DNA of 22,820 nt from a virus. Under the pieces are notes generated by a model that worked only from the letters and a program-made list of their open reading frames with translations, ran no database searches and was not told the DNA's origin. Where the stretch lies: the IMG/VR virus record IMGVR_UViG_3300025401_000104, positions 1 through 22,820 of that record. One strand, given 5' to 3'. The translations under genes and the position numbers were made by a program. Shown here piece after piece: positions 6,713-22,820 of this stretch (the first letter of the stretch is position 1; every line of letters begins with the position of its first letter).

Positions 6713-6718
6713 AATAAT

Positions 6719-6748: not shown

Positions 6749-6760
6749 TTGGAGAATGTT

Positions 6761-7372: not shown

Positions 7373-7380
7373 AATTTCCC

Positions 7381-7409: not shown

Positions 7410-7431
7410 AATAATATGCCTCGTGTTTTTT
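7395..7431 (+). terminator. Rho-independent terminator after the endolysin gene
   Basis: AACACGAGG (7395-7403) pairs perfectly with CCTCGTGTT (7419-7427) around a 15-base AT-rich loop, followed by a T run. The loop holds promoter elements for the next gene. Confidence 0.8.
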
Positions 7432-7443
7432 CGTGGAGATTTA

Positions 7444-9918
7444 ATGTCTAAATTTTATACAAATGTTTTCGGTCGTGGCGATCGTATATATCTTCGTGGT
7501 TATGATATGGGACTTCCTGTTAAAGAAGTTATCCAATACAAACCATATCTTTTTATCCCAAACAAAGATGGTGAATTTAAAACACTTGATGGTCAAGCAG
7601 TTGCTAAAATAGATTTTGATAGCATTAATGACGCACGTGATTTTACAAAACGATATGAAGACGTTGGTAACATGCCGATTTTTGGTTTGACCAATTATCC
7701 GTATATGTTTATCTATGATAATTATAAAGGTGATATTGATTATGACCCAAAATTAATTAATGTTGTATCAATCGATATTGAGTGTAAATCAGATAATGGT
7801 TTTCCGAATATCGCTGAAGCCGATCAGGAATTAACTGCTATCACTATCCGCTGTAAGGGTGCGACTGCAGTATTTGGTATGGGAGATTTTAAAACTAATG
7901 ATTCAAACATCAGTTACATCAAATGCAAAGACGAGTATCAACTTATTGAAAGATTCCTGCAGGTATGGCAATCGCCTAGCTGGTCGCCAGATATCGTTAC
8001 GGGGTGGAACATCGAGTTCTTCGACATCCCATATCTTATCAACCGTATCAAAAGAGTATTCAATGAGAAGGAAGCTAAGAAACTCTCTCCTTGGGGTATG
8101 ATATCCGAGCGTAATGTTGAGTTCCGTGGCAAAGAGAACCAAACCTATGATATCGCTGGTCTATCAACTTTAGATTATTATCAGCTATACCGTAAGTTTT
8201 CTTTTGGCAACCAAGAATCATATAAGCTAGATTATATTGCCCAGCTTGAGCTTGGCGAGAAAAAAGTTGATTATCGCGATCAAGGTTATAAGGATCTAAC
8301 CGATCTTTATAATCGTAATCATCAGTTGTTCATTGAGTATAATATTAAGGATACTGTTCTTGTCGATAAACTTGAAGATAAATTAAAGTTTATTGAACAG
8401 GTCATGGCTATCGCTTATGATGCTAAGGTCAACTATGATGATACGATGACTACTGTTCGTTCTTGGGATGTTATAATTCATAACTATCTTCTAAATCAAA
8501 ATATTGTTATTCCGCAATTTAAAAAACAACCTGATAACGAAGCGTTAGTTGGCGGTCATGTTAAAGAACCTAAAATTGGTTTGAGTAAGTGGATCGTATC
8601 TTTCGATTTGAATAGTTTGTATCCGCATTTGATTATGCAGTATAATATCAGCCCCGAAACATTTGCTGGAAAAATTGATTTTCCTTCTATCGATTATATG
8701 TTAAGAGGTAATTGGGAATATCGAGATGGGTCAGTAACTTATGCTGCTAATGGGTGTATGTACCGAAAAGATAAACAAGGTTTCCTTCCGGCATTAATGG
8801 AGAAGATGTATAATGACCGTTCATTGTATAAGAAAAAGATGCTTGAAGCCAAAAAGAGTTATGAAAAAACCAAGTCTAGTGAAGATGAAAAAGCAATCGC
8901 ACGTTATCACAATATGCAACTTGCGAAAAAAATTCAGCTTAACTCTGCTTACGGTGCCCTTGGGAATCAGTTTTTTCGATGGTTCAACTTCAACCATGCC
9001 GAAGCAATTACAACCAGCGGTCAATTATCAATTCGTTGGATTGAACAGAAAATGAATGAGTACATGAACAAGTTGTGTAAAACGACTGGTTCAGATTACG
9101 TTATTGCTTCTGATACAGATTCAATCTACGTTACGTTCGAGAAATTGATTCCAGAAAATTGTGATGAACTTGAAGCCGTTAAGTTGATTGACGACTTTTG
9201 TGATCGTTATATTCAGCCGTATATGGATAAGTCTTATGACGAGTTAGCTGGTATGATGAATGCCTATCAGCAAAAGATGCAGATGAAGCGTGAAACTATT
9301 GCCAACAAAGGTATCTGGCGTGGCAAGAAGATGTATATTCTAAATGCTTGGAATGTTGAAGGTGTTCAGTATGATAAACCGAAACTGAAGATCAGTGGAA
9401 TCGAAGCAGTTCGTTCATCAACTCCTTCTGCTTGTCGTGAAAATATTAAAAACGCTCTTGAAATTGTTATGAATAAGTCTGAAAATGAATTACAAAAGTT
9501 TGTTTCAGAGTTTCGTATTAAGTTTCTAGAACTTCCGTTTGAAGATGTTGCATTCCCACGTGGTATTAAAAATATGTGGAAGTATAAGGATGCTTCTAAT
9601 ATTTATAAATCAGGTACACCGATACAAGTTAAAGGTGCATTGCTCTTTAATAATCTATTACTAAAACATAAATTAAATAATATCATGCCAATAACTGATG
9701 GCGATAAAGTTCGATTTGCTTATCTTAAAACGCCCAATCCTATACATGATACTGTTATCGCAGTACCCGAAGAATTGCCAGCTGAGTTTAAATTAGATAA
9801 GTATATTGATCGCGATTTACAATTCGATAAGAGTTTCCTTGAACCGCTACGTTCTATAACGGAGGTAATTGGATGGGAAGTAGAGAAAACATCAACACTG
9901 GAAGGATTTTTTACATAA
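7444..9918 (+). CDS. 43: Family B replicative DNA polymerase (T4 gp43 type)
   Basis: An 824-residue polymerase with 3'-5' exonuclease, somewhat shorter than T4 gp43 (898 residues). Exo I has Asp111/Glu113 in SIDIECKSDN, Exo II has Asp194 in NIEFFD, and Exo III has Tyr299/Asp303 in YNIKD. Polymerase motif A is FDLNSLYP (Asp388), motif B KKIQLNSAYG (about 495-504), and motif C SDTDSIY (Asp557, Asp559). The C-terminal LEGFF resembles the clamp-binding tail of gp43. ATG 7444 has GGAG at 7434-7437. The gene is uninterrupted, with no intron or intein. Its stop overlaps the next start as TAATG. Confidence 0.97.
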   Translation: MSKFYTNVFGRGDRIYLRGYDMGLPVKEVIQYKPYLFIPNKDGEFKTLDGQAVAKIDFDSINDARDFTKRYEDVGNMPIFGLTNYPYMFIYDNYKGDIDYDPKLINVVSIDIECKSDNGFPNIAEADQELTAITIRCKGATAVFGMGDFKTNDSNISYIKCKDEYQLIERFLQVWQSPSWSPDIVTGWNIEFFDIPYLINRIKRVFNEKEAKKLSPWGMISERNVEFRGKENQTYDIAGLSTLDYYQLYRKFSFGNQESYKLDYIAQLELGEKKVDYRDQGYKDLTDLYNRNHQLFIEYNIKDTVLVDKLEDKLKFIEQVMAIAYDAKVNYDDTMTTVRSWDVIIHNYLLNQNIVIPQFKKQPDNEALVGGHVKEPKIGLSKWIVSFDLNSLYPHLIMQYNISPETFAGKIDFPSIDYMLRGNWEYRDGSVTYAANGCMYRKDKQGFLPALMEKMYNDRSLYKKKMLEAKKSYEKTKSSEDEKAIARYHNMQLAKKIQLNSAYGALGNQFFRWFNFNHAEAITTSGQLSIRWIEQKMNEYMNKLCKTTGSDYVIASDTDSIYVTFEKLIPENCDELEAVKLIDDFCDRYIQPYMDKSYDELAGMMNAYQQKMQMKRETIANKGIWRGKKMYILNAWNVEGVQYDKPKLKISGIEAVRSSTPSACRENIKNALEIVMNKSENELQKFVSEFRIKFLELPFEDVAFPRGIKNMWKYKDASNIYKSGTPIQVKGALLFNNLLLKHKLNNIMPITDGDKVRFAYLKTPNPIHDTVIAVPEELPAEFKLDKYIDRDLQFDKSFLEPLRSITEVIGWEVEKTSTLEGFFT

Positions 9919-10193
9919 TGAATGAAAATGATTTTGGTTTCAGCTTAGTATCAGAAGCAGAATTAAAAAAGCATGAAGAAATGCTTAAGAAGAAAGTAGA
10001 AGAGCAATCTAAAATTGTTGTTAAAACAGCTTTAGATAATCAAGCAAAGCTACAGGGATTGATTGATATGGTTATGCCACTGCTTAATAACCTTACAAAA
10101 GATCCAGATAAAACTTATATTCTTTGGCCAGACCGTGCTGAGAAAATGGCAGCTTTCATTAAAAAGATAAATGATTACGTAAGCAATGCTTAA
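9918..10193 (+). CDS. Small conserved phage protein downstream of DNA polymerase
   Basis: A 91-residue, mostly helical protein with a coiled-coil-like region at residues 14-40 and the segment KDPDKTYILWPDRAEKM near the C-terminus. I recall this Tyr-Ile-x-Trp-Pro-x-Arg pattern from small proteins of T4-like phages; the function is unknown. ATG 9918 overlaps the polymerase stop, and the 3' end overlaps the next gene by eight bases, so it lies within the replication operon. Confidence 0.75.
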   Translation: MNENDFGFSLVSEAELKKHEEMLKKKVEEQSKIVVKTALDNQAKLQGLIDMVMPLLNNLTKDPDKTYILWPDRAEKMAAFIKKINDYVSNA

Positions 10194-11124
10194 CATAATT
10201 ACAATCCTGGTATCGTTTACAATATCAGGAGTATCTGCGTATTTTTCGATTATTGGTTTAACTGCTATCTTCTCAGCTGCATATTATCCTATCATTGTGA
10301 TGGGAACTGCACTAGAAATAGGTAAGTTAGTTGCATCAACATGGCTATTTCATAATTGGAAAAGTTGTCCTTGGTTGCTGAAAGTATATCTGTCATTGGC
10401 AGTAGTTGTATTAATGTTAATTACCAGCATGGGTACATTTGGTTTTCTTTCAAAAGCACACATCGAACAAAACATAAACATTACAACTGGTAGTGCTGAT
10501 GATGCACAAATTGTTCAAACTAAAATTGATTCTGAACAAGCAATAATTGATGATTTGAATAAACAGATTTCGCAGATTGATTCTGCTGTTACAAAAATGA
10601 CTGATAAGGGACAGGCTGCTAGTTCTTTACAGGCTGCAGATAAACAACGAAAGATTCGTGATGACCTTACAAAAGAAAAATCTAGACACGTCGATATTAT
10701 ATCAGGTTTCAAATCACAAAAAGTTAAACTTGACTCGAGCATCAAAAAACTTGAAGCAGAAGTTGGTCCAGTCAAATACATTGCAGCGGCATTATATGGA
10801 ACCAGCGGACCTGAGACACTTGAAGTTGCTGTTCGGTGGGTTATATTCTTGCTTGTTATTGTATTTGATCCTCTCGCCGTTGTATTATTGCTGGCATCTA
10901 ATCATGGATTAAAAAATAAAAGATTGACTAATAAAGAGAAACATAGTATATTAATAATTGGACCTGAGATATTTGGAGAAGATAATGGCACTGAAAGACA
11001 AGTTAATCAAGAACAGCACGATCGACCTAACGGCAACATTAACCGACAGCAAGATCTTCACGAAGAAGGACATGATTCCAACATCAGTCCCGATGATCAA
11101 CGTAGCCCTGTCGGGATCAGTTGA
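10186..11124 (+). CDS. Membrane protein with central coiled coil, overprinting the uvsX start
   Basis: A 312-residue protein with likely membrane helices at about 8-29, 33-54, 66-88 and 215-238, and a coiled coil at about 105-195. The FDPLAVVLLLASN helix end is typical of a membrane protein family found in many T4-like phages, whose function is not established. Residues beyond about 267 are encoded in a second frame over the first 140 bases of uvsX and form a polar, low-complexity tail (Gln, Asn, Asp, His rich). That tail is probably a recent extension or a stop loss. Confidence 0.75.
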   Translation: MLNIITILVSFTISGVSAYFSIIGLTAIFSAAYYPIIVMGTALEIGKLVASTWLFHNWKSCPWLLKVYLSLAVVVLMLITSMGTFGFLSKAHIEQNINITTGSADDAQIVQTKIDSEQAIIDDLNKQISQIDSAVTKMTDKGQAASSLQAADKQRKIRDDLTKEKSRHVDIISGFKSQKVKLDSSIKKLEAEVGPVKYIAAALYGTSGPETLEVAVRWVIFLLVIVFDPLAVVLLLASNHGLKNKRLTNKEKHSILIIGPEIFGEDNGTERQVNQEQHDRPNGNINRQQDLHEEGHDSNISPDDQRSPVGIS

Positions 11125-12034
11125 TGGAGGTATCACTCCAGGACTAACCATGTTGGCTGGTCCATCTAAGCATTTTAAAACTGGTTTCGCACTTCTTCTT
11201 GCTTCTGCTTATTTGAAAAAGTATCCAGATGGCGTAATTCTTTTTTATGACTCAGAGTTTGGTACTCCCCAGTCATACTTTACTACATTCAAGATTCCAT
11301 TTGATTCTGTCGTTCATACTCCGATCACTGACATCGAGGAACTGAAGTTTGATATTATGAAACAGATGTCAGAACTATCACGTGATGATCATGTAATGAT
11401 TGTTATCGATTCGATCGGTAACTTAGCTTCTAAGAAAGAAGTTGAAGATGCATTAAACGAGAAGTCAGTTTCTGATATGACTCGTGCGAAGCAATTAAAA
11501 TCTTTGTTCCGTATGATTACACCACACTTGACTCTTAAAGATATTCCTATGGCAGTGATCAATCATACCTATAAGGAAATTGGTTTATATCCAAAAGATA
11601 TCGTTGGTGGTGGTACTGGTTCTTATTATGGTTCAGATAATATTTGGATCCTTGGTCGTCAGCAAGATAAGGACGGTACAGAGATTCAAGGTTACCACTT
11701 TGTTATTAATGTGGAAAAGTCTCGTTATGTTAAGGAAAAGTCTAAGATTCCTATTACAGTCAGTTTCGAAGGAGGCATTAATCGTTGGTCAGGTTTGCTT
11801 GATGTGGCTCTTGATGGTGGGTATATTGTTAAACCTAAGAACGGTTGGTATGCCACAGTAGATAAAGAAACTGGTGAAGTTCATACACCTTCTATGCGAG
11901 CAGGTGATATTGTAGATAACGGGGCATTCTGGAAAAAGATGTTTACCGAAACAGACTTTGCTCAATATATCGAAAAACAATATAAATTTTCAACTGGTTC
12001 AATTATGGAGGATGATGATGAGCTCGGTGATTGA
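10985..12034 (+). CDS. uvsX: UvsX RecA-like recombinase
   Basis: A 349-residue strand-exchange protein, shorter than T4 UvsX (391). Walker A is GPSKHFKT (residues 59-66), the YDSEFG segment holds the catalytic Glu91, and Walker B is VMIVIDSIG (Asp142). GGGTGSYYGSDNIWI matches the L2 and following region. The acidic C-terminus (MEDDDELGD) is typical for UvsX. ATG 10985 has GGAG seven to eight bases upstream; it lies 140 bases inside the preceding gene. It supports recombination-dependent replication with the polymerase and gene 41 helicase. Confidence 0.95.
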   Translation: MALKDKLIKNSTIDLTATLTDSKIFTKKDMIPTSVPMINVALSGSVDGGITPGLTMLAGPSKHFKTGFALLLASAYLKKYPDGVILFYDSEFGTPQSYFTTFKIPFDSVVHTPITDIEELKFDIMKQMSELSRDDHVMIVIDSIGNLASKKEVEDALNEKSVSDMTRAKQLKSLFRMITPHLTLKDIPMAVINHTYKEIGLYPKDIVGGGTGSYYGSDNIWILGRQQDKDGTEIQGYHFVINVEKSRYVKEKSKIPITVSFEGGINRWSGLLDVALDGGYIVKPKNGWYATVDKETGEVHTPSMRAGDIVDNGAFWKKMFTETDFAQYIEKQYKFSTGSIMEDDDELGD

Positions 12035-12209
12035 GGAATATAAACAAGGTAACAGAAAAGCTATTATTGTTCTAGAAGGCGAAACTTTGTGTATTGATTT
12101 TTACAAAGATGATCTTCAAATTAATAATGTAGAATATCCAAATAATAGTATTCACTTTGTCAAAGACGCTGCTGAAAATTATGTTAATGGAATTTTAAAT
12201 TTTGATTGA
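12018..12209 (+). CDS. Small protein between uvsX and gene 41 (position of T4 gene 40)
   Basis: A 63-residue acidic protein. Three ATG codons overlap at 12012, 12015 and 12018. The third is preferred because GGAGG (12007-12011) is six bases upstream and the first would abut it. It overlaps the uvsX end by 17 bases. The C-terminal HFVKDAAENYVNGIL pattern is common in small phage proteins. In T4, gene 40 lies between uvsX and 41, but there is no visible sequence relationship, so the link is positional only. Confidence 0.7.
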   Translation: MSSVIEEYKQGNRKAIIVLEGETLCIDFYKDDLQINNVEYPNNSIHFVKDAAENYVNGILNFD

Positions 12210-12429
12210 AAATATTTGTCAGCAGATTTGTTGGTATGACGATAATAATGTGTGCCTCGGCTGTGGGCGTATAGCCGAGGAGATTGTCGAATGGATGATT
12301 GCATCAGATATTCGAAAAGCTGAAATAAAGAAGATTGCAGGGGAAAGATTAAATGAGCGTAGAAAAGCTGATATTCAACAATTTGCTACACAACGAGGAG
12401 TATGCTCGAAAGACAATTCCTTTTCTTAA
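12202..12429 (+). CDS. DUF1289-like four-cysteine protein
   Basis: A 75-residue protein with Cys residues at 6, 10, 18 and 21 in ICQQICWYDDNNVCLGCGR followed by EEIVEWMIAS, the signature of DUF1289, a small proteobacterial family thought to bind a metal or Fe-S centre. A TTG start at 12202 is used because no ATG lies upstream of the first cysteine; it overlaps the previous stop. The last 25 codons overlap the gene 41 start in another frame. Function in the phage is unknown. Its placement between uvsX and 41 suggests a link to replication. Confidence 0.75.
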   Translation: MIENICQQICWYDDNNVCLGCGRIAEEIVEWMIASDIRKAEIKKIAGERLNERRKADIQQFATQRGVCSKDNSFS

Positions 12430-13756
12430 GTTAGAATATTTTCAAGACCCTTCTGATAAAATCTTATTTGATATTTTTAATACTCATATCCTAAAATACA
12501 ACTCTATTCCTTCAAAAGAAAGTTTGAATGTCGAACTTCTTAATAGAGATGGATTGTCTGAGGATACGTATCAGAAGATCAAGGAAAATGTTAATGGGTT
12601 ACAGAAAGAAGAGAATACTAAACTGCCATGGCTTCTTGACCAAACAGAAAAGTTCTGTCAAGAAAAAGCTATCTATAATGCAATCATGGCGAGCATTCAA
12701 ATCCTAGATGATAAGAATGGAGTAAAGAGTAAAGGTTCAATACCACAGGTTCTTTCTGATGCATTAGCTGTTAGTTTTGATACTCACATCGGTCATGATT
12801 TTCTTGAAGATGCAAATGATCGTTATGAATATTATCATAAGAAAGAAATTCGTATTCCGTTCGATCTAGATTATCTTAATAAGATTACAAATGGTGGTAT
12901 GCCACGCAAGACTTTGAATATTGCATTGGCGGGTACTGGTGTTGGTAAATCGTTGTTTATGTGTAGTTGTTCAGCTGCTAATATGGTAGCTGGTCTTAAT
13001 GTTTTATATATTACTATGGAGATGTCTGAAGAAAAGATTGCAGAACGTATCGATGCTAATCTTCTTGATACAGCTATTGATCAACTTGCTGCATTACCAA
13101 AAGATGTTTACGATAAAAAAGTACAAAAGATCCGTGGTAAAACTATCGGCAAACTGATCATTAAAGAATATCCAACTGCTTGTGCTGGTTCGGCTAACTT
13201 CCGTCATCTATTGGAAGAATTAAAAATTAAGAAGAACTTTGTTCCAGATATTATCTATATCGATTATCTGAACATCTGTATGTCATCAAGGATAAAAAAT
13301 GGAGCCAACGTCAATAGTTATACCCTTATCAAAGCCATTGCAGAAGAGCTTAGAGGGCTCGCAGTGGAGTACGATGTTCCTGTCGTCTCTGCGACTCAAA
13401 CAACTAGAAGCGGATATTCGAACAGCGACGTGGGATTGGAAGATACGTCGGAATCCTTCGGACTCCCAGCAACAGCTGATTTTATGTTTGCACTCATCAC
13501 GTCCGAAGACTTGGAGCAACGTAATCAAATTATGGTTAAGCAACTCAAGAATCGCTATAATGATCCAGGGAGCAATCGTAAGTTTGTTGTTGGTGTGGAT
13601 CGCAGCAAGATGCGGTTATACAATGTAGAAGAGTCTGCACAAGATTTATCTGACGATCGACCAATTATGGATAACACCAAATTTGGCGAAGAAGATAATG
13701 AAAGATCTAAACCAGCTTTTAAATTTGATAGAACAAAACTTGCTAGCTTTAAATAA
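12353..13756 (+). CDS. 41: Replicative DNA helicase, DnaB/T4 gp41 type
   Basis: A 467-residue hexameric 5'-3' helicase, close to T4 gp41 (475). An N-terminal helical domain (1-155) is followed by the RecA-like core. Walker A is AGTGVGKS (193-200), TMEMSEEKIAERIDA is the DnaB motif 1a region, Walker B is IIYIDYLN (Asp304), VVSATQTTR is motif H3, and KNRYNDPGSNRKF is the arginine-finger region. The acidic C-terminus FDRTKLASFK is phage-specific. An AGGGGAAAG site precedes ATG 12353, which lies inside the DUF1289 gene. The partner primase (gp61) is not in the window. Confidence 0.95.
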   Translation: MSVEKLIFNNLLHNEEYARKTIPFLKLEYFQDPSDKILFDIFNTHILKYNSIPSKESLNVELLNRDGLSEDTYQKIKENVNGLQKEENTKLPWLLDQTEKFCQEKAIYNAIMASIQILDDKNGVKSKGSIPQVLSDALAVSFDTHIGHDFLEDANDRYEYYHKKEIRIPFDLDYLNKITNGGMPRKTLNIALAGTGVGKSLFMCSCSAANMVAGLNVLYITMEMSEEKIAERIDANLLDTAIDQLAALPKDVYDKKVQKIRGKTIGKLIIKEYPTACAGSANFRHLLEELKIKKNFVPDIIYIDYLNICMSSRIKNGANVNSYTLIKAIAEELRGLAVEYDVPVVSATQTTRSGYSNSDVGLEDTSESFGLPATADFMFALITSEDLEQRNQIMVKQLKNRYNDPGSNRKFVVGVDRSKMRLYNVEESAQDLSDDRPIMDNTKFGEEDNERSKPAFKFDRTKLASFK

Positions 13757-13777
13757 ATAATCCCATGGAGGGATTAT
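13757..13777 (+). promoter_or_regulatory. Hairpin masking a ribosome binding site
   Basis: ATAATCCC (13757-13764) pairs perfectly with GGGATTAT (13770-13777) around loop ATGGA. The Shine-Dalgarno GGAGG (13767-13771) lies in loop and stem, and two bases of the ATG at 13776 are in the stem, so folding would block initiation. It could also serve as a 3' stabiliser for gene 41 mRNA. Confidence 0.55.
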
Positions 13778-14012
13778 GCCTGTCGACTGCTATTATCTAG
13801 CAGAGCAGTGGGATGGTATATCATGGGTTCGATATGAAACGTGTCAGTTTGCTAAAAGAGATGATGGTGTAGATGGTGTTTATATTGGTGCTCGCTTACA
13901 ATTCAGACCTATAGAATCTATGTCTCAAGGTAAATGCCTTGATATGGAAACAAAAACTCACGCAAAATATAAAATTGGTGATAAAGAGTGGATTTGTGTA
14001 AAAACTCCTTGA
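13776..14012 (+). CDS. Hypothetical protein behind a start-site hairpin
   Basis: A 78-residue soluble protein, probably beta-rich (AEQWDGISWVRYETC, then GVYIGARLQF), with four Cys residues. I recognise no family. Its start region folds into the 13757-13777 hairpin, so translation is probably controlled. It follows gene 41 by 19 bases and may be read through from the replication operon. Its end overlaps the -35 box of the next promoter. Confidence 0.7.
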   Translation: MPVDCYYLAEQWDGISWVRYETCQFAKRDDGVDGVYIGARLQFRPIESMSQGKCLDMETKTHAKYKIGDKEWICVKTP

Positions 14013-14037
14013 CATTTTACACAAGTTAGGTTATAAT
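14009..14037 (+). promoter_or_regulatory. Consensus early (sigma70-type) promoter
   Basis: TTGACA (14009-14014), a 17-base spacer and TATAAT (14032-14037): a perfect match to the bacterial consensus, followed by GATAATATGAT, the phage-specific downstream element seen at 3178 and 7404. Confidence 0.92.
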
Positions 14038-14063
14038 GATAATATGATAATTTGGAGATTGTA

Positions 14064-14258
14064 ATGATTAGGTTTTTAATTAATCTTGTAATGTTAATTG
14101 TTTTTCTTTCGTTTATGAGATGGTTAACAAATAATAATATCGAAGAAATGACACTGTACATTGGTGTAGTAGCTCTGTTCGAGCTTAATATGCTAAGGGA
14201 TGCCGTAAGCGATCTTAAAAAAAATACTAAGAAACCTGACTGGAATGATTATGTATAA
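14064..14258 (+). CDS. Small membrane protein, possible holin-like
   Basis: A 64-residue protein with a strong hydrophobic helix at residues 3-20, a short polar turn, a second weaker helix at about 29-45, and a charged Lys/Asp-rich tail. GGAG precedes ATG 14064. It is the only gene after a consensus early promoter. Small two-helix proteins can be holins or superinfection-exclusion proteins; early expression favours the second. Function not determined. Confidence 0.65.
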   Translation: MIRFLINLVMLIVFLSFMRWLTNNNIEEMTLYIGVVALFELNMLRDAVSDLKKNTKKPDWNDYV

Positions 14259-14261
14259 ATA
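14254..14261 (+). promoter_or_regulatory. T4-type late promoter
   Basis: An exact TATAAATA overlaps the stop codon of the preceding small gene and lies 30 bases before the next start. It heads a run of five small, closely packed genes up to the terminator at 15845. Confidence 0.78.
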
Positions 14262-14291
14262 AGTGCAGGATCTAACAAGGAAACTGCGATT

Positions 14292-14666
14292 ATGCCAACA
14301 AATAGATACGACCTTAATTTCCAACAAGGCGAAACATTTCAATTAGCACTTAACATTCAAAATGCAAACTCAATGAATATTGATTTGAGTTCGTATGTTG
14401 CTGCTATGCAGATTAGACAATCTTATACAAATAATACAATTATTGAACAATTGTCGACTGCTAATGGTGAAATTCAGGTTGCTAATTCTGGCTGGTATAA
14501 TTTGGTTCTTTCTGCACAGAGAACAGGTAACGTAAGTACAAGTGGTGCTGTTGGTTATCCTCCAAAAGTTATCTATGTTTACGATTTATCTTTAACAGAC
14601 CAAACTGGTATTACTACGAAGATTATGTTCGGTCAGGTTAATTTCTATTCTCAGGTTACTAGATAA
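14292..14666 (+). CDS. Probable virion structural protein (tail/fibre-associated)
   Basis: A 124-residue beta-rich protein. The opening YDLNFQQGETFQLALNIQ, then IDLSSYVAAMQIRQSY and a strand-rich C-terminus (VIYVYDLSLTDQTG), match a pattern I know from small beta-sandwich structural proteins of phages (RQGDTF...DLTGYTARMQIR). An AAGGAA site precedes ATG 14292, and a late promoter directly upstream supports a virion role. The exact location in the particle is unknown. Confidence 0.6.
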   Translation: MPTNRYDLNFQQGETFQLALNIQNANSMNIDLSSYVAAMQIRQSYTNNTIIEQLSTANGEIQVANSGWYNLVLSAQRTGNVSTSGAVGYPPKVIYVYDLSLTDQTGITTKIMFGQVNFYSQVTR

Positions 14667-14881
14667 TGGATCCGTTTAGATACCAGTTTGCAAATACTCA
14701 ACAGGTACTCTTTACATATACAATTCCTACGAGAGCATCTGCTCCTATAGCAAACGTAACAACCTATACCGCACAAATGAATAAAATACAGCAGTTACAT
14801 GTATTCTTTATTAATCCTTTAGATGAAAAAGAAACTTATCTAAATCCTTATACTGGTGAAATGCAAAGTCCATATTATTGA
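14666..14881 (+). CDS. Small hypothetical late protein
   Basis: A 71-residue protein rich in Thr, Gln, Tyr and Pro with no recognised motif. Its ATG overlaps the previous stop as TAATG, so translation is coupled. The late operon context suggests a minor virion or assembly protein (inference). Confidence 0.65.
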   Translation: MDPFRYQFANTQQVLFTYTIPTRASAPIANVTTYTAQMNKIQQLHVFFINPLDEKETYLNPYTGEMQSPYY

Positions 14882-14893
14882 AAGGTAAATATT

Positions 14894-15301
14894 TTGTCTA
14901 TGCATCTTGTGGGTCCATATCTTACTACTTCTCGTTATAAATCTAAAACTAAACAATCAAAATCAAAAAAACTAGCTGAAGCGACTGCCAAACATAACAA
15001 GTGGTTGCTCGAACGTGGTTTGCATCCGAACCAACGCCAGCTTCAAAAAGCCTATCGTGGCGAGCTCAAATTTAACATTCCTGATTATACTACTGAGAGC
15101 CTGTATGAATTAGGCAATCAAGTAGGTAATGGTTATAAGCGTGGCATCATGGAGAAACTTCGTGATGAATCGCCAGAGGTCCAGAAAGCTATTCTGGATA
15201 AAGCTGCTCGTTGTGAGGTAGCTTATAATAAAGGACCAGTGATGTATCACAGTCCTGAAACTGATATGAGTATGACTGGTAGCAAAAGTAGGAGAGGTTA
15301 A
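14894..15301 (+). CDS. Basic hypothetical late protein
   Basis: A 135-residue, strongly basic protein with a Lys/Ser-rich N-terminus (SKTKQSKSKKLAEATAKH) and helical middle. TTG 14894 is used, with AAAGG eight to nine bases upstream; ATG 14900, two codons later, is the alternative. The basic N-terminus suggests nucleic-acid contact, but no family is recognised. Confidence 0.65.
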   Translation: MSMHLVGPYLTTSRYKSKTKQSKSKKLAEATAKHNKWLLERGLHPNQRQLQKAYRGELKFNIPDYTTESLYELGNQVGNGYKRGIMEKLRDESPEVQKAILDKAARCEVAYNKGPVMYHSPETDMSMTGSKSRRG

Positions 15302-15502
15302 ATGGTAGAACAAATGGAACAAGCAACAGTTAATGATTTAAGTCAAGAGCAGAAAGAACAATATCGTTTAGATCAGCTACGATATAATCGTCAGTGGGCT
15401 GTTGAAAAAGCAATGATTTGGGCTAATTCTAACAATACTGTAGAACGTATGCTTGAGATTGCTGAGATGATGAATGAGTTTATCAATAAGGATAAAAAAT
15501 AA
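15302..15502 (+). CDS. Small helical hypothetical protein
   Basis: A 66-residue, almost entirely helical protein (Gln/Glu-rich, then RYNRQWAVEKAMIWANS). The ATG directly follows the preceding stop and the stop overlaps the next ATG as TAATG. No family recognised. Confidence 0.65.
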   Translation: MVEQMEQATVNDLSQEQKEQYRLDQLRYNRQWAVEKAMIWANSNNTVERMLEIAEMMNEFINKDKK

Positions 15503-15708
15503 TGGATTATAAGGTTGTAAAGAAAGATAATACTTACACTGTGTTGGAAACTAAAACTGAACATAATGTTGGGACATATCTTTCAGAAACTGAAGCACGT
15601 GTTATTGCTCGTATGTATAATCTTGGAGGTGGGTTCGCAGGTTGGACACCAAAATTTATTTTAAATAAAGTTGATGTTGAACGATATATTACTGTTGGAC
15701 TTGACTAA
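15502..15708 (+). CDS. Small hypothetical protein
   Basis: A 68-residue alpha/beta protein with a KVVKKDNTYTVLETKT strand pair, then a LSETEARVIARMYNLGGGF helix that resembles many small phage proteins of unknown function. It is the last gene before the structured region and terminator at 15718-15871. Confidence 0.65.
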   Translation: MDYKVVKKDNTYTVLETKTEHNVGTYLSETEARVIARMYNLGGGFAGWTPKFILNKVDVERYITVGLD

Positions 15709-15717
15709 ATAAAAGTA

Positions 15718-15844
15718 ATGAAATTGGTTTGCACCTTTAGAGGTGTTCGTGGCAAGGGAGTCGAAAGTACAGTATCGATACCAAGGAAAAGTCTGGGAAT
15801 AAACAGTGGGGTTCTGTCCGGACAGCCAGTTTCTATTGCTTCAA
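15718..15844 (+). ncRNA. Candidate structured RNA upstream of a terminator
   Basis: About 130 bases between the small gene cluster and the terminator are G-rich compared with the surroundings. Stems seen are CACCT/AGGTG (15732-15745), the palindrome GTATCGATAC (15772-15781), and CTGTCCGGACAG (15814-15825). The last competes with GTCTGG (15791-15796) pairing to CCGGAC (15818-15823), so two folds exclude each other. An ATG at 15718 is in frame with the next gene, but the peptide it would add looks unlike the rest. No known RNA family is recognised. Confidence 0.4.
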
Positions 15845-15871
15845 GGGGGGATCTTAGGGTCTCCCCTTTTT
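15845..15871 (+). terminator. Rho-independent terminator
   Basis: GGGGGGATC (15845-15853) pairs with GGTCTCCCC (15858-15866) over a TTAG loop, with five T residues following. It separates the 14254 late unit from the 15877 late promoter. Confidence 0.85.
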
Positions 15872-15876
15872 CATTA

Positions 15877-15884
15877 TATAAATA
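15877..15884 (+). promoter_or_regulatory. T4-type late promoter for the enzyme/tail-fibre operon
   Basis: An exact TATAAATA (in TATATAAATATAAT) starts six bases after the terminator T run and 31 bases before ATG 15916. Confidence 0.8.
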
Positions 15885-15915
15885 TAATAAAATAATTATA
15901 TTGGAGCATTTTCAT

Positions 15916-17196
15916 ATGGGAAATTTCATTAAATATCTATTAGAAGAAAAAGCAAGCAAAGAAGATTTTGGTGATTTAGGAAATGACCCAAAAGGTAAAA
16001 TGCATGAATTGTTAGTAGGTATGCACCTTAATGGTGGCAAACATATGGAAACATTTAGAGACGAAAATAAGAAAACACCAAAACAAGTTCACGACGAAAT
16101 TGCAGAAAAACTTGGTGGCGTAAATTCTCCTCAATATAAAAACTTTAGCGAAAGAGCCAGAAAAGCTGCTGAAGATATTAAAAAACAATTAGGTTTAAAA
16201 GATGAAGATATTGCTCATGTTAGATGGACTTCTAAACATGGCGATTTAGAATCCGCCACAGGTATACCAGCTACACAAACACAAGATGGTTCCGATGTGC
16301 TCATCACAGACCGCAATGGCAGACATCATGGCGTAAGTTTAAAAGTTTCAAACGATAATCAACCGATTACTCTTTCTAATGGTGGTGTCGAAGATACTTA
16401 TGGCGGTAGTAAAATTCACGAAGATAATAAAAATAAAATTAAAGAACAATATCCTGAATTACAGCATATTTCTAATCCAGATCAAAGAAAAGAATGGTTA
16501 AGAAATAATCCAGAAGCAAAAACTAATATTAACGGAAGAAATGTTGCAACATTACAAAATATAGCTAGGCATATGTCTGAACAAATTAGTAATATGACAC
16601 CAAAACAAAAAGTTGAACATATAAGAAAAACTTTAAAAGCATATTCTACACCAATGCAAGCGCATGGTCACAACCATATAAGACACTTCACGGGTGGCGG
16701 TCACGATCCTGTTTTAGAAACATCTCATCCAGGTGAAGATCATGAACATTTTTTAAGTCAGCCAGATCGTATAAAAGTTAGACACGCAGGTACTTCTATA
16801 TATTTTGAACATCATGGTGAAGATGGTAGAGTTACTCCTTTTGCCATGCAAACTGCTAAATTTAGTAGCCAATCAGATCCTTTATCTTCTTTAGTTGTTG
16901 TCGGAAAAGAAGTTAAAAGAAAAAAAGATAAAGCACCATCAGTTGCTCCAATTTTACAAACTGAAAAACCACCAGCAACAAAACCTGCTGCCAAAAAGAA
17001 AAAAGTAGAAACAACACCAACATCTGCCGAACAAAAAAGAGCAAAACAATCTGCAGGTAGCACAATTGGCGGTCAATCTTTCTATTCTCCTTCTGAAATC
17101 GGTAGACACGCAGATGATGGCGGTAGATCAGTAGATGAAAATAAAAAATCATCAAAATTAGGATTGAAAAAATTACTAGAAATGATTGGAAGATAA
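15916..17196 (+). CDS. Late protein with PD-(D/E)xK-like nuclease fold and possible capsid-targeting N-terminus
   Basis: A 426-residue protein. The N-terminus MGNFIKYLLEEK resembles the cleavable capsid-targeting peptides of T4 internal proteins, with a possible gp21-type LLE site. Residues 28-145 hold the order Glu31 in a helix, WTSKHGDLESATG (104-116), GSDVLITD with Asp127, and GVSLK with Lys143. This fits a PD-(D/E)xK nuclease core in which Ser replaces the usual Glu of ExK. A long charged middle and a Lys/Pro/Ala-rich linker (about 340-380) follow. ATG 15916 is chosen for GGAG upstream and because it follows the late promoter. The nuclease call is inference. Confidence 0.6.
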   Translation: MGNFIKYLLEEKASKEDFGDLGNDPKGKMHELLVGMHLNGGKHMETFRDENKKTPKQVHDEIAEKLGGVNSPQYKNFSERARKAAEDIKKQLGLKDEDIAHVRWTSKHGDLESATGIPATQTQDGSDVLITDRNGRHHGVSLKVSNDNQPITLSNGGVEDTYGGSKIHEDNKNKIKEQYPELQHISNPDQRKEWLRNNPEAKTNINGRNVATLQNIARHMSEQISNMTPKQKVEHIRKTLKAYSTPMQAHGHNHIRHFTGGGHDPVLETSHPGEDHEHFLSQPDRIKVRHAGTSIYFEHHGEDGRVTPFAMQTAKFSSQSDPLSSLVVVGKEVKRKKDKAPSVAPILQTEKPPATKPAAKKKKVETTPTSAEQKRAKQSAGSTIGGQSFYSPSEIGRHADDGGRSVDENKKSSKLGLKKLLEMIGR

Positions 17197-17197: not shown

Positions 17198-19072
17198 ATG
17201 TTAAGTTTTAGAGCTTTTATTATTGAAGAAGAACAAGAAGGCGAAGGTAAGAAACTAAAACATCTTACTCATCTTGAGGATAAATCTTTTCATGAAGGTC
17301 ATCAAGGTGTAGCCGAAGCCGATAAAACACTTCGTGGTGTTGAAAAACAAATTGAAGGCAAACCAACTAAAACTAAAATTTCAACAAAATGGGACGGTGC
17401 GCCTTCTATCGTTTACGGGCATCATCCAGAAACTGGTCAGTTTTTTGTTGCTTCAAAATCAGCATTCAATAAGAACCCAAAATTAAATTATACGCCTGAA
17501 GATATCGAGCGTAATCATGGTCATGCTCCTGGACTCGTTGAAAAACTAAAAGCAGCATTAGAGCATCTACCAAAAGTTGCACCAAAGAAAGGTGTATTCC
17601 AAGGCGACTTGATGTATACTAGACCTGATGTTGCAGCAGAAGGCGATAAAGTAAGTTTTCAGCCAAACACCATTAAGTATTCTACTCCTGAAAATGGCAG
17701 AGAAGGTAAAAAAATAAAAGCTGCTCAATTAGGATTAGTAACTCATACAAAATATGTTGGTAAAAAACTTGAAGATATGGCTGCAACCCCAGTTGATGGT
17801 ACAGAAGGTTTCAAACAACATCCTGACGTTCATCAAATTGATCCAGTAACAAACACTGAGAATGCGCATTATACTCCTGAGATGAAAACTGAATTTCATA
17901 ATCATTTGGAAAATGCACGCAGAGCATATTCTGATATGAGCCATGAATATCCAGATATGATTAAAGGCAATGAACCTTGGATTGAAGCGCATGTTAATGA
18001 TCAGGTAAGAAAAGGTGGCAAACCGTCAGCTGAAGGTTTCCTAAAGTATATGAGAGATAGAAGAGATAAAGAAGTTGGTAAACTTAAATCTCCTGCTGGT
18101 CAAGAAAAGAAAAGATTAGAACACGACAAAAACATTGATAATCTAGAAAAAAACAAAGGCGAACTTGAAAAACTATTCAAGTTGCATGGCCATTTACAGG
18201 GTGCTAAAAACGTATTAGTGAGAGCTCTAAATTCGTCAGGCGATTATGACCATGAAATTAATGGTGAAAAAACAGGTCCGGAAGGATATGTTGCTGATGG
18301 TACTAAACTTGTTGATAGAGAAGATTTCTCTAAGAAAAATCTATTAGGTGCTGGTGCATTTCAAAAGAAACCAATTTCAGAATCTTATGATCCTAAGCCA
18401 ATCGTTTATGCTCATGTTAGAATGAATCCTCCGACTGCTGGTCACGAAGCATTAATTAATAAAGTTAAAGAAGAAGCTGATAAACAAGGTGCTGATCATT
18501 TAATTAATGTATCCCATAGTCAGGATCCTGAAAAAAATCCATTAAGTAAAGAACAAAAACTTGCTCATCTTAGAGAGATGTTTCCTAAAACTAATTTCGG
18601 TGCTACCTCTGAAGAAGAACCAAGTTTAATTGACCATCTTAAAAAATTAAACAAAGCTGGACATAAACATCTTACATTGGTAGCTGGTAGTGATCGTGCA
18701 CCTGAAATGAAAAAATTACTTGATAGTTATAATGGAAAAGAGTATAACTTTGATAAAATTAATGTAGTTTCATCTGGCGAAAGAGATCCGGATGCTGAGG
18801 GCACAACTGGTATGTCTGCAACTAAAATGCGAGATCATGCTATAAATAATAGGTTCAATGAATTTGCTTCTGGTCTTCCATCTAAAACTAAACCAGATCA
18901 AGCAAAAAGAATATTTGATGATGTAAGAAATGGAATGGATATTCCTATTAATCCAAATACTCATCCTATTAAATTAAAACGCTATGCTGAAAGAAACGAT
19001 CCTATCGGCGAGAAAGCCAGAAAAGAACAGAAAAGACGTATGGCTGAAAAGGTTATTAGAAAGAAAAAATAA
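17198..19072 (+). CDS. Bifunctional nucleotidyltransferase: KxDG ligase-like domain plus NMNAT-like TxGH domain
   Basis: A 624-residue two-enzyme fusion. The N-terminus MLSFRAFIIEEEQEG resembles a T4 capsid-targeting peptide. Residues 59-200 carry KWDGAPS (Lys64 as candidate adenylated lysine), an FFVASKS strand and VFQGDLMY near 133-140, matching motifs I and III of the DNA/RNA ligase superfamily. Residues about 400-570 form a cytidylyltransferase-like Rossmann domain with NPPTAGH (TxGH at 413-416), LVAGSD and GMSATKMR (539-545, the ISxTKxR loop), as in NMN adenylyltransferases. ATG 17198 follows GGAAGA. The next gene starts by TAATG overlap. Substrates are unknown. Confidence 0.75.
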   Translation: MLSFRAFIIEEEQEGEGKKLKHLTHLEDKSFHEGHQGVAEADKTLRGVEKQIEGKPTKTKISTKWDGAPSIVYGHHPETGQFFVASKSAFNKNPKLNYTPEDIERNHGHAPGLVEKLKAALEHLPKVAPKKGVFQGDLMYTRPDVAAEGDKVSFQPNTIKYSTPENGREGKKIKAAQLGLVTHTKYVGKKLEDMAATPVDGTEGFKQHPDVHQIDPVTNTENAHYTPEMKTEFHNHLENARRAYSDMSHEYPDMIKGNEPWIEAHVNDQVRKGGKPSAEGFLKYMRDRRDKEVGKLKSPAGQEKKRLEHDKNIDNLEKNKGELEKLFKLHGHLQGAKNVLVRALNSSGDYDHEINGEKTGPEGYVADGTKLVDREDFSKKNLLGAGAFQKKPISESYDPKPIVYAHVRMNPPTAGHEALINKVKEEADKQGADHLINVSHSQDPEKNPLSKEQKLAHLREMFPKTNFGATSEEEPSLIDHLKKLNKAGHKHLTLVAGSDRAPEMKKLLDSYNGKEYNFDKINVVSSGERDPDAEGTTGMSATKMRDHAINNRFNEFASGLPSKTKPDQAKRIFDDVRNGMDIPINPNTHPIKLKRYAERNDPIGEKARKEQKRRMAEKVIRKKK

Positions 19073-22000
19073 TGGCAATTGATGAAGAAGCATTTTTAAA
19101 GAAATTTGCAAAAGCTCTAGGTGCAGAGGATGTACTTGATGAGATGGAACAAAAAAAAATCAAGGAGCAAAAACTTCTTGAAGGTTTAAATAATGCACTT
19201 ACGAAATTAACTGTTGGTGAGAAGCTAGTTGTTGAAGAAAAATTCAAAAAGCCAGTTCGACTTATTGCTGAAGATATCCCAGTTGGATTACCAGCTCCAG
19301 CATCAAAACCAAATGAGCCAAAACCAATTCCTCTTGGTGCACAGCCATTACCACAGCTTCCTCATAAAGATTTAATTACAAAATCAGTTGATGCTATTTC
19401 ACAGAAAGCACGTGATGAATACGTAGCTGCTGTTGATGCTGTACCAAACAGTATTCGCAAAGAACTTGATATTATTAAGAAAACAATTACTGATTTGCAT
19501 CGTTATGCATCACGTGCATCCCAAATGGGCGGCGGTGGTGAAGTAAAATTTGCTCGTTTAGATGATGTTAATTCTTCAACAATTGCTGCTGGATTGTATT
19601 TAACCTATAATCCAACAACTAAGATGTTTGAATTTCAAGAAGTTTCAGCACAATCAGTTAATCTCAGTAATATAACTCAAGATATAGTTCCCCAGTACTC
19701 TGGCGTGTGGAGTCTTGGCAACTCTACAAATCAATGGGCTAATTTATATGTTCAGGACGTCGTATTTCCCGATGGCACCACGATAGTAACATCAAATACA
19801 CTCGGTAAGTTTGTATTCACCAATAACACGATTAATCTCGTAAACTCAGTAAGTAACGATATAATCGTTAATCCACAGGCAACTGGTAATTTTACTGTCA
19901 ATGGTAATATTATTCCAACTGGCAATCAAACATATACACTTGGTAATACTACTAATCGTTTCCAATCAATTTATGTCGGTTCTAATTCTATTGTATTTTC
20001 TGATACATTGGGCGGTCCAGATCAAACTTTATCTTTGGCTAATCAAGTATTTTATATTACACAAGGTCCAGGTACAAATACTCAATATAATGCTAATGCT
20101 GGATTTAATGCTGGTGGTATTATATCTCAAAATTATTCTTTGTTTCTAGCCAACAATAGTCAAAGTTTGACTATTGGTAATCCAGGAGATTCTGGCCAAG
20201 TTATTATTTCCAGAACCGTTCAAATCGGTAACTCTGTTGCTAACTCTGCACAGTCAGCATTCCAAATATCAAATAATGGTTTAACAACCATTCGTAATAA
20301 TTTAAATATTATCAATCCTATTACACAAACTACAATATCTCCTTTTACTGTCCAAAACCAGTCAGGAACGCCACAAGGATTTACAAATCCAGGCGTAACG
20401 ATGTATGCGATTAATGCTGCTAATCTCAGTAATCGTTTTGTTATGGATACATATGGTAATAATATGTATAATGTTATTGCTGCTCGAGCTTCTAGAGGTA
20501 CAATTAATTCTCCTACTTCTTCTCAGGCAAATGACATATTGCTTCGTATAACAGGTAATGCTTTTAGAAATAACGCATTTGGTACTTCTGGTGATGCTCG
20601 TATCGATCTTGTTGCTTCAGAAAATTTTAGTGATGCAAATAATGGTTCTCAGATAAATTTTTGGACAACAAAAATTGGTACAAATAATATAGCTATATCT
20701 GCTTCGATTACATCGAATGGGTTTGTAATTGCTAATAACCAAACTGGTATAACATTTAGTGATAATACATATCAAAATACTGCATTCAATTCTACATCGG
20801 CAGTAACAAATATTACTGTCGGAACTGGTCTTACTCAGTCAAATTCTGTTGGTAATGTTGGTATTAATGCAACTGGTGTTCTTTCGGTAGCTGGTACAGC
20901 AAGACAAGTTATCGTTGCCAACACTGGCCAGAATATAACTCTCTCGACTCCTCAGAATCTCGATACAAATTCGACAGTTCAATTTGCTAACCTAACTGTT
21001 AATAACTTTACTGTTACTGGCACTTCAACGATCGCAAACAATCAATCTCTTGCAACTAAACAATTAAATCTCGCATACAATTCTACACTTGCCGCACAAA
21101 TTGATGGTGGTGGTATTACTCTTGGTAATACATCTTCTGCATATTATCGCTCGATTCTCTATAATTTGGCTAATGATTACTGGTCAACGGGCAGCGCCAA
21201 TTTTGTCACACAAAATTTATATTCAAATTATATCAATGCGAATAACCTTTCGATAGCAAATGCTGCACATTTCGGTGACGCTTACATTGGTTATGACTAT
21301 CCAAATGCAATTATTCAAGCCGATCAAAATATTGCAACTTATAGTCAAATAATAGAGCAAAATCACAGCAGTAGCGTTGATGCTTCTACGGATTTTGTTG
21401 CAGTTAATGATATTGGTAATAATGATATTCACTTTATTGATTTTGGCATAAACAGTTCTACATGGTCGAATACTGATTGGACTATCAATGGACCATCTGA
21501 TGGTTATCTTTATATTGACTCGGGTAATCTATCAATAGGAACTGCGACTGCAGGTAAAGTTTTAACATTTTTTACTGGCGGTACATTAGCATCAAAACTT
21601 CGTATGACGATTAATGATTCTGGTGTTACAGTTGTTAATAATGTAACAGCTAACAGCTTTACTGGTCCATTAACTGGCAACGTAACTGGAAACATTACTG
21701 GTACAGCAAATAACACTAACTACGTAGGTTCGGTATCTGCTGCTAATGTTGTTTCTAATGCTCAATTAGTTGCTAACTTAGCTAACTATACTAATACAGC
21801 TGGTTTATCTGCATACCAAACAACTGCTGGTTTATCAGCTAATGTATTAACACTAACTTCTAATAACACAACTTACGTAGGTGCTGTTACAGCTTCTAAC
21901 GTAGTATCCAATGCTCAGTTGATTGCTAACTTAGCTAATTATCAAACTACAGCTGGTTTATCAGCTAATGTGGCTAAACTTACAGCTAACAATACATCAT

Positions 22001-22820
22001 TCGTTGGATCAGTTTCAGCAGCCAACGTAGTATCCAATGCTCAGTTGATTGCTAATCTTGTTAATTATGCTCAGCTTGCTGGAGCTACTTTTACTGGTAA
22101 TGTGATAGTTAATGCCAACCTTACTACTAATGCTATCTTTACAGTCGGTAATGCTACAGTAAATACAGTTATAAGTGGTTCTACTATTACGACTGCTAAT
22201 TTGACTACTAATTATATTGTCGCAAATGGTACTGCTGGAGTAGCGGGTCAGGTGCTTGTATCTGGCGACGGTTCTTCTAATGTATACTGGGCAAATCCAT
22301 CTCTTTATTTTGTGCTTGGCGCAAATACTACATATACTCCTGGAAATGCTACACCTCAAAGTATATTTCGAGTCGGCGCGACGTTGGCAGCGAATACAAG
22401 ATACCAATTTAGAGCTCAGTTTTCTTTTAGTACATCGGTTAACCATTTAGTTCCTACACTAGCATGGAATGGTACAGCTATAGGAAACGTAAAGTCTATA
22501 ACGTATAATGCTATATCCGACTTTGCAGGTTTTTCATCATCAGATAATAACTTAAACGTAGTATATAATCTACTATATTCTGGATTTACTACTGGTGTAA
22601 GTTTATTACCAGGAGGACCAAAAGGACAAACAAGCTCAAATGTTCCAATGGGTGTGTTGATTACTGGAGTAGTAGATGTCGGTAATACTAGTGGAACATT
22701 TTATCCTACGATAGGATTTGATAATACTCCTGGAACTGTTACAACTTATGCTTTAAGTTCTATATCATTTGTTCCAGCAGGTGTATCTGGAGCAAATAGT
22801 TCAGTTGGTACATGGGCATA
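19072..22820 (+). CDS. Large tail-fibre-like protein, open at the window end
   Basis: The frame is open from ATG 19072 (TAATG overlap with the previous gene) through 1249 codons, and the last two bases, TA, could begin a stop codon. Residues 1-165 are charged, helical and Pro-rich, likely the virion anchor. From about 170 the protein becomes Asn/Thr/Ser/Gly-rich and beta-structured, with fibre repeats such as VWSLGNSTNQWANLYV and TYTLGNTTNRFQSIYV. Three NNTxYVG...NAQLxANL repeats lie at 21709-22080. The final 200 residues, from GQVLVSGDGSSNVYWANP, look like a compact beta-domain, possibly receptor-binding. Late expression is expected from 15877. Confidence 0.85.
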   Translation, partial: MAIDEEAFLKKFAKALGAEDVLDEMEQKKIKEQKLLEGLNNALTKLTVGEKLVVEEKFKKPVRLIAEDIPVGLPAPASKPNEPKPIPLGAQPLPQLPHKDLITKSVDAISQKARDEYVAAVDAVPNSIRKELDIIKKTITDLHRYASRASQMGGGGEVKFARLDDVNSSTIAAGLYLTYNPTTKMFEFQEVSAQSVNLSNITQDIVPQYSGVWSLGNSTNQWANLYVQDVVFPDGTTIVTSNTLGKFVFTNNTINLVNSVSNDIIVNPQATGNFTVNGNIIPTGNQTYTLGNTTNRFQSIYVGSNSIVFSDTLGGPDQTLSLANQVFYITQGPGTNTQYNANAGFNAGGIISQNYSLFLANNSQSLTIGNPGDSGQVIISRTVQIGNSVANSAQSAFQISNNGLTTIRNNLNIINPITQTTISPFTVQNQSGTPQGFTNPGVTMYAINAANLSNRFVMDTYGNNMYNVIAARASRGTINSPTSSQANDILLRITGNAFRNNAFGTSGDARIDLVASENFSDANNGSQINFWTTKIGTNNIAISASITSNGFVIANNQTGITFSDNTYQNTAFNSTSAVTNITVGTGLTQSNSVGNVGINATGVLSVAGTARQVIVANTGQNITLSTPQNLDTNSTVQFANLTVNNFTVTGTSTIANNQSLATKQLNLAYNSTLAAQIDGGGITLGNTSSAYYRSILYNLANDYWSTGSANFVTQNLYSNYINANNLSIANAAHFGDAYIGYDYPNAIIQADQNIATYSQIIEQNHSSSVDASTDFVAVNDIGNNDIHFIDFGINSSTWSNTDWTINGPSDGYLYIDSGNLSIGTATAGKVLTFFTGGTLASKLRMTINDSGVTVVNNVTANSFTGPLTGNVTGNITGTANNTNYVGSVSAANVVSNAQLVANLANYTNTAGLSAYQTTAGLSANVLTLTSNNTTYVGAVTASNVVSNAQLIANLANYQTTAGLSANVAKLTANNTSFVGSVSAANVVSNAQLIANLVNYAQLAGATFTGNVIVNANLTTNAIFTVGNATVNTVISGSTITTANLTTNYIVANGTAGVAGQVLVSGDGSSNVYWANPSLYFVLGANTTYTPGNATPQSIFRVGATLAANTRYQFRAQFSFSTSVNHLVPTLAWNGTAIGNVKSITYNAISDFAGFSSSDNNLNVVYNLLYSGFTTGVSLLPGGPKGQTSSNVPMGVLITGVVDVGNTSGTFYPTIGFDNTPGTVTTYALSSISFVPAGVSGANSSVGTWA
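21709..22080 (+). repeat. In-frame tandem repeats within the tail-fibre gene
   Basis: Three copies of a roughly 42-codon unit begin at 21709, 21862 and 21988. Each encodes NNTxYVG, then S/T-A-S/A-NVVSNAQL and ANLxNY. The first copy has nine extra codons (spacing 153 versus 126 bases). Copies two and three share long near-identical DNA stretches (AACGTAGTATCCAATGCTCA), so slippage or recombination could change the copy number. Confidence 0.8.

Follow-up and report, generated by a model that had tools for sequence, protein, structure and literature searches.

A putatively packaged fusion of a DUF6267 ligase-like domain with a HIGH-superfamily nucleotidyltransferase in T4-like phages

Hundreds of sequenced cyanophages and other T4-like phages encode a DUF6267 protein together with a partner enzyme, a pair whose function has so far been unassigned. 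In the virus record IMGVR_UViG_3300025401_000104 the two are joined in a single reading frame, the product of which begins with a peptide reminiscent of the leaders of T4 internal head proteins. The locus raises the question of what two such enzymes might do together, and whether they are delivered by the phage particle. The best explanation as a whole, to which we would give a probability of roughly 0.6, is that the product is a double enzyme of T4-like phages, expressed late and packaged in the capsid.

A two-gene unit behind a T4-type late promoter

The window, by which we mean the whole stretch of DNA analysed (22,820 nt), covers part of the genome of a T4-like phage. Its T4-like gene content includes a DNA polymerase B (phrog_262), a UvsX-like recombinase and a DnaB-like gp41 helicase, and it carries six tRNA genes. 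The fused gene opens with MLSFRAFIIEEE and is uninterrupted. A preliminary description of this DNA had delimited the same reading frame, which is indeed open from both candidate start codons (Table 1), and its numbering of K64 holds when counted from the ATG. The same description called the gene late, and this is supported by an exact copy of the T4-type element TATAAATA ahead of the adjoining gene, which stops 1 bp short of the ATG of the fused gene and forms with it a two-gene unit. Among relatives, exact TATAAATA is found within 120 bp upstream of 29 of 93 leader-bearing DUF6267 genes, compared with 2.4% of random places and 14% of other gene starts, and at spacings similar to that of the window. 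A gp21-type protease (Peptidase_S77) is encoded by all three relatives on contigs longer than 120 kb; five contigs of 33–106 kb gave no match.

The upstream gene deserves mention in its own right. The ORF finder placed its start at 15718, but the ATG at 15916, which lies behind the late promoter and opens a leader, was preferred. In an alignment of 12 sequences, most of them approximately 20–30% identical to the window's protein, M1, F4, E10, E31, D127, S141 and K143 are invariant. Searches of Pfam, PADLOC and the phage collection gave no match to the protein; its leader and PD-(D/E)XK-like pattern make it a candidate packaged nuclease. PADLOC found no defence family among the two window proteins searched. 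On the other side of the fused gene, the ATG of an ORF of at least 1249 aa (19072–22818, + strand) overlaps the stop codon (TAATG); it runs off the end of the window, and its product is repetitive, Asn/Thr-rich and fibre-protein-like. Elsewhere, a class 3 lipase gene (PF01764, E 2e-21; 1293–2162, − strand) lies close to the tRNA genes of this T4-like phage. A 47–48-bp near-match to human-gut phage contigs (2124–2171) lies inside the tRNA-Val gene at 2096–2171; being a piece of that gene, it gives no indication that a mobile segment is shared.

Table 1. Coordinates of the fused gene, its motifs and its upstream neighbourhood; residues of the fused protein are counted from the ATG
Feature	Residues	Position	Strand	Basis
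T4-type late promoter element TATAAATA		15877..15884	+	exact match; begins 39 bp and ends 31 bp before ATG 15916
Upstream leader-bearing gene, MGNFIKYLLEE...		15916..17196	+	PD-(D/E)XK-like pattern E31, D127, S141xK143
Fused gene	624 aa	17198..19072	+	counted from ATG 17198; TTG 17186 is an alternative start
Capsid-targeting-like leader, MLSFRAFIIE	1-10	17198..17227	+	T4 IPII/IPIII pattern; low pLDDT at residues 1-17
DUF6267 domain, putative ligase-like covalent nucleotidyltransferase half	21-382	17258..18343	+	Pfam PF19782, AlphaFold2, VIA
Motif I, KWDG	64-67	17387..17398	+	K, D, G invariant (n = 82)
Motif III-like, QGD	135-137	17600..17608	+	D137 invariant (n = 82)
Motif IV, EGYV	362-365	18281..18292	+	E, G, V invariant (n = 82)
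Motif V-like, KLVDR	370-374	18305..18319	+	K370, R374 invariant (n = 82)
HIGH-superfamily (NMNAT/PPAT-like) half	392-624	18371..19069	+	phrog_3041 E 1e-62, AlphaFold2, Foldseek, VIA
HxGH-like ATP motif, RMNPPTAGH	408-416	18419..18445	+	P, G, H invariant (n = 57)
GSDR motif	497-500	18686..18697	+	G, D, R invariant (n = 57)
ISSTxxR-like motif, SATKMR	540-545	18815..18832	+	S and R in 56/57

Motifs and folds of the two halves

The preliminary description had read the protein as a ligase-superfamily core joined to an NMNAT-like Rossmann domain. The four motifs on which it relied (KWDG, FQGDLMY, NPPTAGH and SATKMR) are in place, and their catalytic positions are invariant, or nearly so, among 82 relatives of the N-terminal half and 57 of the C-terminal half. 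Structure prediction and fold searches, which it had proposed, bear out the second fold clearly and lead to PPAT and NMNAT; the first depends on invariant motifs together with a structural match that is borderline (ligases in VIA, Foldseek non-significant).

The C-terminal half belongs firmly to the HIGH superfamily, in the NMNAT/PPAT-type class, an assignment of class rather than of substrate. It matches phrog_3041 and phrog_395 (“cytidyltransferase”), and the Pfam family CTP_transf_like (PF01467) is matched by 52 of the 57 members; in the window the domain alone scores 21.5 bits against a cut-off of 21, and the whole protein 19.2 bits. Membership of the HIGH/CTP_transf_like superfamily follows from this match, the HxGH and SxxxxR motifs and the Rossmann-like fold. 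The AlphaFold2 model (pLDDT 91) retrieved PPAT and NaMN adenylyltransferases in Foldseek (E 6e-6 to 1e-4), and VIA gave Z scores of 14.5 for PPAT and 13.4 for an archaeal NMNAT. NaMN/NMN adenylyltransferases are the commonest specific NCBIfam families matched (by 35, 24 and 21 of 57 members). The fused protein stays far below the curated cut-off, reaching 12.8 bits with TIGR00482, where 112 are required, and the best E value among the 57 members is 5e-7 (TIGR00482, TIGR01526).

The first 386 residues correspond to Pfam DUF6267 and phrog_455, the former matched with an E value of 4e-93 (1.5e-93 in another search) and 313 bits against a cut-off of 27. Invariant throughout the 82 relatives are K64, D66, G67, K87, D137, H183, E362, G363, V365, K370 and R374, among which K64, D137, E362GxV and K370 occupy the places expected of covalent-nucleotidyltransferase motifs I, III, IV and V. 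EGYV and K370...R374, absent from the preliminary description, complete the set; motif III deviates, with an invariant aspartate (D137) where the superfamily usually has glutamate. We regard it as highly probable that this half is a covalent nucleotidyltransferase.

Which covalent nucleotidyltransferase it most resembles is a finer matter. The AlphaFold2 model has a pLDDT of 92, falling below 50 only at the leader (residues 1–17) and the last residues. Foldseek alone gave no significant match, the best being human DNA ligase 1 (E 0.13). When its candidates were realigned with VIA-align, all of the best 50 rows were ligases, led by a Naegleria RNA ligase (Z 8.4 over 180 residues, rmsd 3.8), TbREL1 (7.8), Trl1 (7.4) and T4 Rnl2 (7.2). 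Although a Z of approximately 8 is in the range of chance matches for any single row, the uniform list of ligases and the motif set together make a ligase-like assignment likely, with the RNA ligases as the best likeness of the model. The alignment with Rnl2 begins at residue 18 of the model and residue 3 of Rnl2; if it is ungapped there, KKLKHLTH faces KKYSSLEN. The model has a helical insertion at approximately residues 227–345 and a closing helix after motif V, with no C-terminal OB-fold. Sequence comparison is less telling: the N-half profile found no ligase in the PDB, and hhalign of the DUF6267 profile with the T4 Rnl1 and Rnl2 families gave probabilities of about 2 or less, in a setting where the positive control, Rnl1 against Rnl2, failed too (4.6). 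None of the curated RNA-ligase models matches the fused protein, and PF09511 (RNA_lig_T4_1) matches only 2 of the 82 members (best E 0.017), which is why the DUF6267 half is not filed as an RNA ligase.

The two halves travel together. In the phage collection 530 records, mostly of cyanophages, have a match, and the halves are separate genes, adjacent or nearby, in HTVC008M, P-RSM6, DLP6, P-HM2 and most gene-named records. The C gene is fused to the N-half gene or lies no more than 2.5 kb downstream of it in 92 of 96 assessable loci, a sample in which fused loci are over-represented because part of it was fetched with a fused query; 27 of 58 separate pairs are at most 3 bp apart or overlap. When the fused state is mapped on a maximum-likelihood tree of the N half, seven changes are needed, at least three of them forced by branches with good support (bootstrap range 6–7; shuffled mean 20): the fusion was gained or lost on several occasions. 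At five loci (L064, L067, L077, L094 and L095) a second HIGH-family gene lies near DUF6267, often with a leader of its own (MKDYRQLIKELPS..., MKQFKEFLRES...).

The leader and the evidence from virions

In T4 IPII and IPIII, roughly the first 10 residues form a conserved capsid-targeting sequence (PMC9958956). Both begin MKTYQEFIAEA, a pattern that MLSFRAFIIE has in common with them. The resemblance, pointed out in the preliminary description for FRAFIIEEE, is real and conserved: the strict pattern is present at 94 of 121 DUF6267 N-termini, against 2 of 4206 internal methionines and 0.08–0.26% of shuffled N-termini. A cultured phage in which the DUF6267 gene bears it is Stenotrophomonas phage DLP6 (MMKFTQFLAES). 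Of the other ORFs in the same loci that reach 120 aa, 36 of 528 carry it too, and these come from ten unrelated families that include PD-(D/E)XK-like proteins, HAD phosphatases, a zeta-toxin-like P-loop kinase and an adenylate-kinase-like protein. In the P-HM2-type clade both genes are without a leader and DUF6267 starts at the domain itself (MSKNTHLEHLED), and the leader is therefore an add-on. Three kinds of leader-bearing neighbour of DUF6267, namely the HAD phosphatase (phrog_415, named polynucleotide kinase), the P-loop kinase and the adenylate-kinase-like protein (L008:8216-8839, L115:3818-4534, L126:4221-4805), are possible packaged end-healing enzymes.

Mass spectrometry of purified virions has detected the C-half homologue in three cyanophages: S-SM1 (T4-GC190; PMC3037559), S-SCSM1 (ORF91; PMC9602691) and S-CREM2 (ORF154/gp154; PMC10665884). 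All three bear the leader (SSM1_190, MKKFSAFLNEA; ORF91, MKSFLQFLKEA; gp154, MKNFSSFLTEA). The published virion evidence concerns separate C-half homologues and no DUF6267 protein (PMC3037559, PMC9602691, PMC10665884), and the authors of the proteomes consider that such enzymes may co-purify instead of being packaged. The DUF6267 proteins of S-SCSM1 (ORF257, MQNKHQEHPED) and S-CREM2 (gp87, no pattern match) are leaderless and absent from the virion lists. ORF90 of S-SCSM1, a virion protein adjoining the NMNAT, was considered as the DUF6267 half and ruled out, that half being ORF257.

Genome-wide in S-CREM2, the leader pattern, fixed before this phage was examined, is found on 3 of 52 virion proteins and on 0 of 167 others (Fisher p 0.013), the three being a SAM hydrolase, a kinase and the cytidylyltransferase. 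A widened pattern, chosen post hoc with part of the data seen, adds Cas9 and gp13 and gives 5 of 26 non-structural virion proteins against 2 of 167 non-virion proteins. Enrichment of the leader pattern among virion proteins was not seen in S-SCSM1 (1/48, against 5/234 others). Within positions 1–16000 of S-CREM2 (L203; gp6, gp12, gp13, gp14), the virion-detected SAM hydrolase, APH-like kinase and Cas9 are leader-tagged (MKDFDSFLEE, MKRFDAFLTEE, LRFASFMAEA); the Cas9 leader sits behind a 16-residue N-terminal extension, and this phage apparently carries a Cas9-type nuclease inside its head. Gene 30 of S-SCSM1 (L048:44215-44535), which lies among structural genes, encodes a 106-aa leader protein (MKTFKQFMSES...) that is unreported in the virion.

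That the leader sends proteins into the head, as the preliminary description proposed, is well supported by the T4 IPII/IPIII pattern, its occurrence on unrelated families and its presence on homologues detected in virions, and we hold packaging of the fused protein to be probable. Two other accounts of the leader are both very unlikely. According to one, the pattern arises by chance from the make-up of N-termini or by common ancestry and does not direct packaging, and the lack of enrichment in S-SCSM1 and the many virion proteins without a leader agree with it. Such an origin is hard to reconcile with null rates of 0.05–0.3%, compared with 78% for DUF6267 and 6.8% for other ORFs, with ten unrelated families bearing the same leader and no match among the 167 non-virion proteins of S-CREM2, or with the invariance of F4 and E10 in an upstream family of which the rest is only about 20–30% identical. 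The other account makes the leader a late-assembly or scaffold-binding tag on a protein with a purely structural role in the head; T4 proteins with this targeting sequence are core components (PMC9958956), and the gene is under a late promoter. Yet both active sites are invariant in a family whose members are mostly 33–65% identical to the fused protein, and the leader is missing in part of the family and attached elsewhere to enzymes of unrelated fold.

Proposed function and known systems

Taken together, we propose that the protein is synthesized late and that residues 1–10 would act as an IPII/IPIII-type capsid-targeting sequence, bringing it into the core of the prohead; there, cleavage after IxE at E10 by a gp21-type protease is probable. 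Both enzymes would then be injected together with the DNA and act within the first minutes of infection, ahead of phage gene expression. The RNA-ligase-type half would be expected to form adenylyl-lysine at K64, and the second activity would be that of a HIGH-superfamily adenylyltransferase of NMNAT/PPAT type. Most likely, damaged nucleic-acid ends would be sealed or modified while the nucleotide used is supplied or recycled. Leader cleavage, injection, substrates and biological role are the parts of this scheme that we infer, and end sealing or end modification is offered as a tentative role.

More specific schemes can be drawn. In one, the virion would deliver a self-recycling sealing enzyme, whose N half adenylylates K64 with NAD+ (or ATP) and joins ends while its C half rebuilds NAD+ from NMN and ATP; it would be one of several injected leader-tagged repair enzymes (HAD phosphatase, P-loop kinases, PD-(D/E)XK-like protein) mending damage by host nucleases before phage transcription. 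We consider this version improbable. The main rival, which has a real but less than even chance, is NAD+ maintenance: the C half would be a true NMN/NaMN adenylyltransferase, delivered by the virion to oppose host NADase defences or to serve phage metabolism, and the N half would be accessory or NAD+-consuming. The fold, the motifs of the C half and the specific NCBIfam families that most members match speak for this, as does its earlier proposal for the cyanophage homologues (PMC9602691, PMC10665884); jumbo phages, too, carry genes for NAD+ synthesis (PMC7824862). The scores far beneath the curated NMNAT cut-off and the equal or better structural match of PPAT tell against it, no other NAD-salvage enzyme was found among the window proteins searched, and the invariant active site of the N half is left unexplained.

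Motifs I to V are common to ligases and capping enzymes. It is thus conceivable, if rather unlikely, that the N half is a covalent nucleotidyltransferase of a non-ligase kind that caps RNA or nucleotidylates a host protein, analogous in purpose to T4 Alt, a packaged protein annotated as modifying a host target, the host RNA polymerase. The helical insertion, the helix after motif V and the missing OB-fold of the model fit such an enzyme; against it, the VIA rows are ligases with RNA ligases first, and no capping enzyme is among the best 50.

That NMNAT-like proteins, and hence the packaged C-half type, occur in cyanophage virions is already known. New here are a ligase-like interpretation of DUF6267, its close pairing and recurrent fusion with a HIGH enzyme, and a leader common to T4 internal proteins and other packaged enzymes. 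In the literature searched we found no paper on DUF6267 and no account of the ligase-like half or the shared leader; the jumbo-phage survey, in its excerpted text, covers NAD+-synthesis and RNA-repair systems of phages with no mention of the DUF6267/HIGH pair (PMC7824862). The ligase-like reading, the HIGH pairing and the T4-type packaging leader give DUF6267 and its partner a role that can be tested. The leader can also be used as a simple rule to predict injected proteins of T4-like marine phages: of the four named packaged non-lysis enzymes of S-CREM2, it marks three, and the post hoc widening adds the fourth, Cas9.

With T4 IPII and IPIII the fused protein shares the leader (MLSFRAFIIEE against MKTYQEFIAEA), late expression, a T4-type phage and a gp21-type protease in relatives. 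Those proteins are small (100 and 193 aa) and we know of no enzyme activity in them, whereas the present one is a 624-aa double enzyme predicted to be packaged. The cyanophage virion cytidylyltransferase/NMNAT (S-SM1 T4-GC190, S-SCSM1 ORF91, S-CREM2 gp154) resembles it in the homologous C half and the leader, the detection by mass spectrometry being theirs; it is a separate gene in cyanophages but fused behind the DUF6267 half here, and one leader therefore serves both. Archaeal NMNAT, NadD and PPAT (CoaD) have the Rossmann-like fold, the HxGH-like and SxxxxR motifs and a conserved arginine two residues before NPP in common with the C half, from which they differ in an identity of 10–21% in the structural matches and in scores under the curated cut-offs. 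T4 Rnl2, TbREL1 and the Naegleria RNA ligase are like the N half in the KxDG-type motif I, EGxV, the motif V lysine and, as a borderline match, the overall fold (Z 7–8), and the N-terminal KLxHLEH resembles KYSSLEN of Rnl2. Unlike these ligases, it has aspartate in motif III, a helical insertion of about 120 residues before motif IV, no match to a curated family and another accessory domain. Its full-length match is to Pfam DUF6267/phrog_455, a family without an assigned function until read here as a nucleotidyltransferase.
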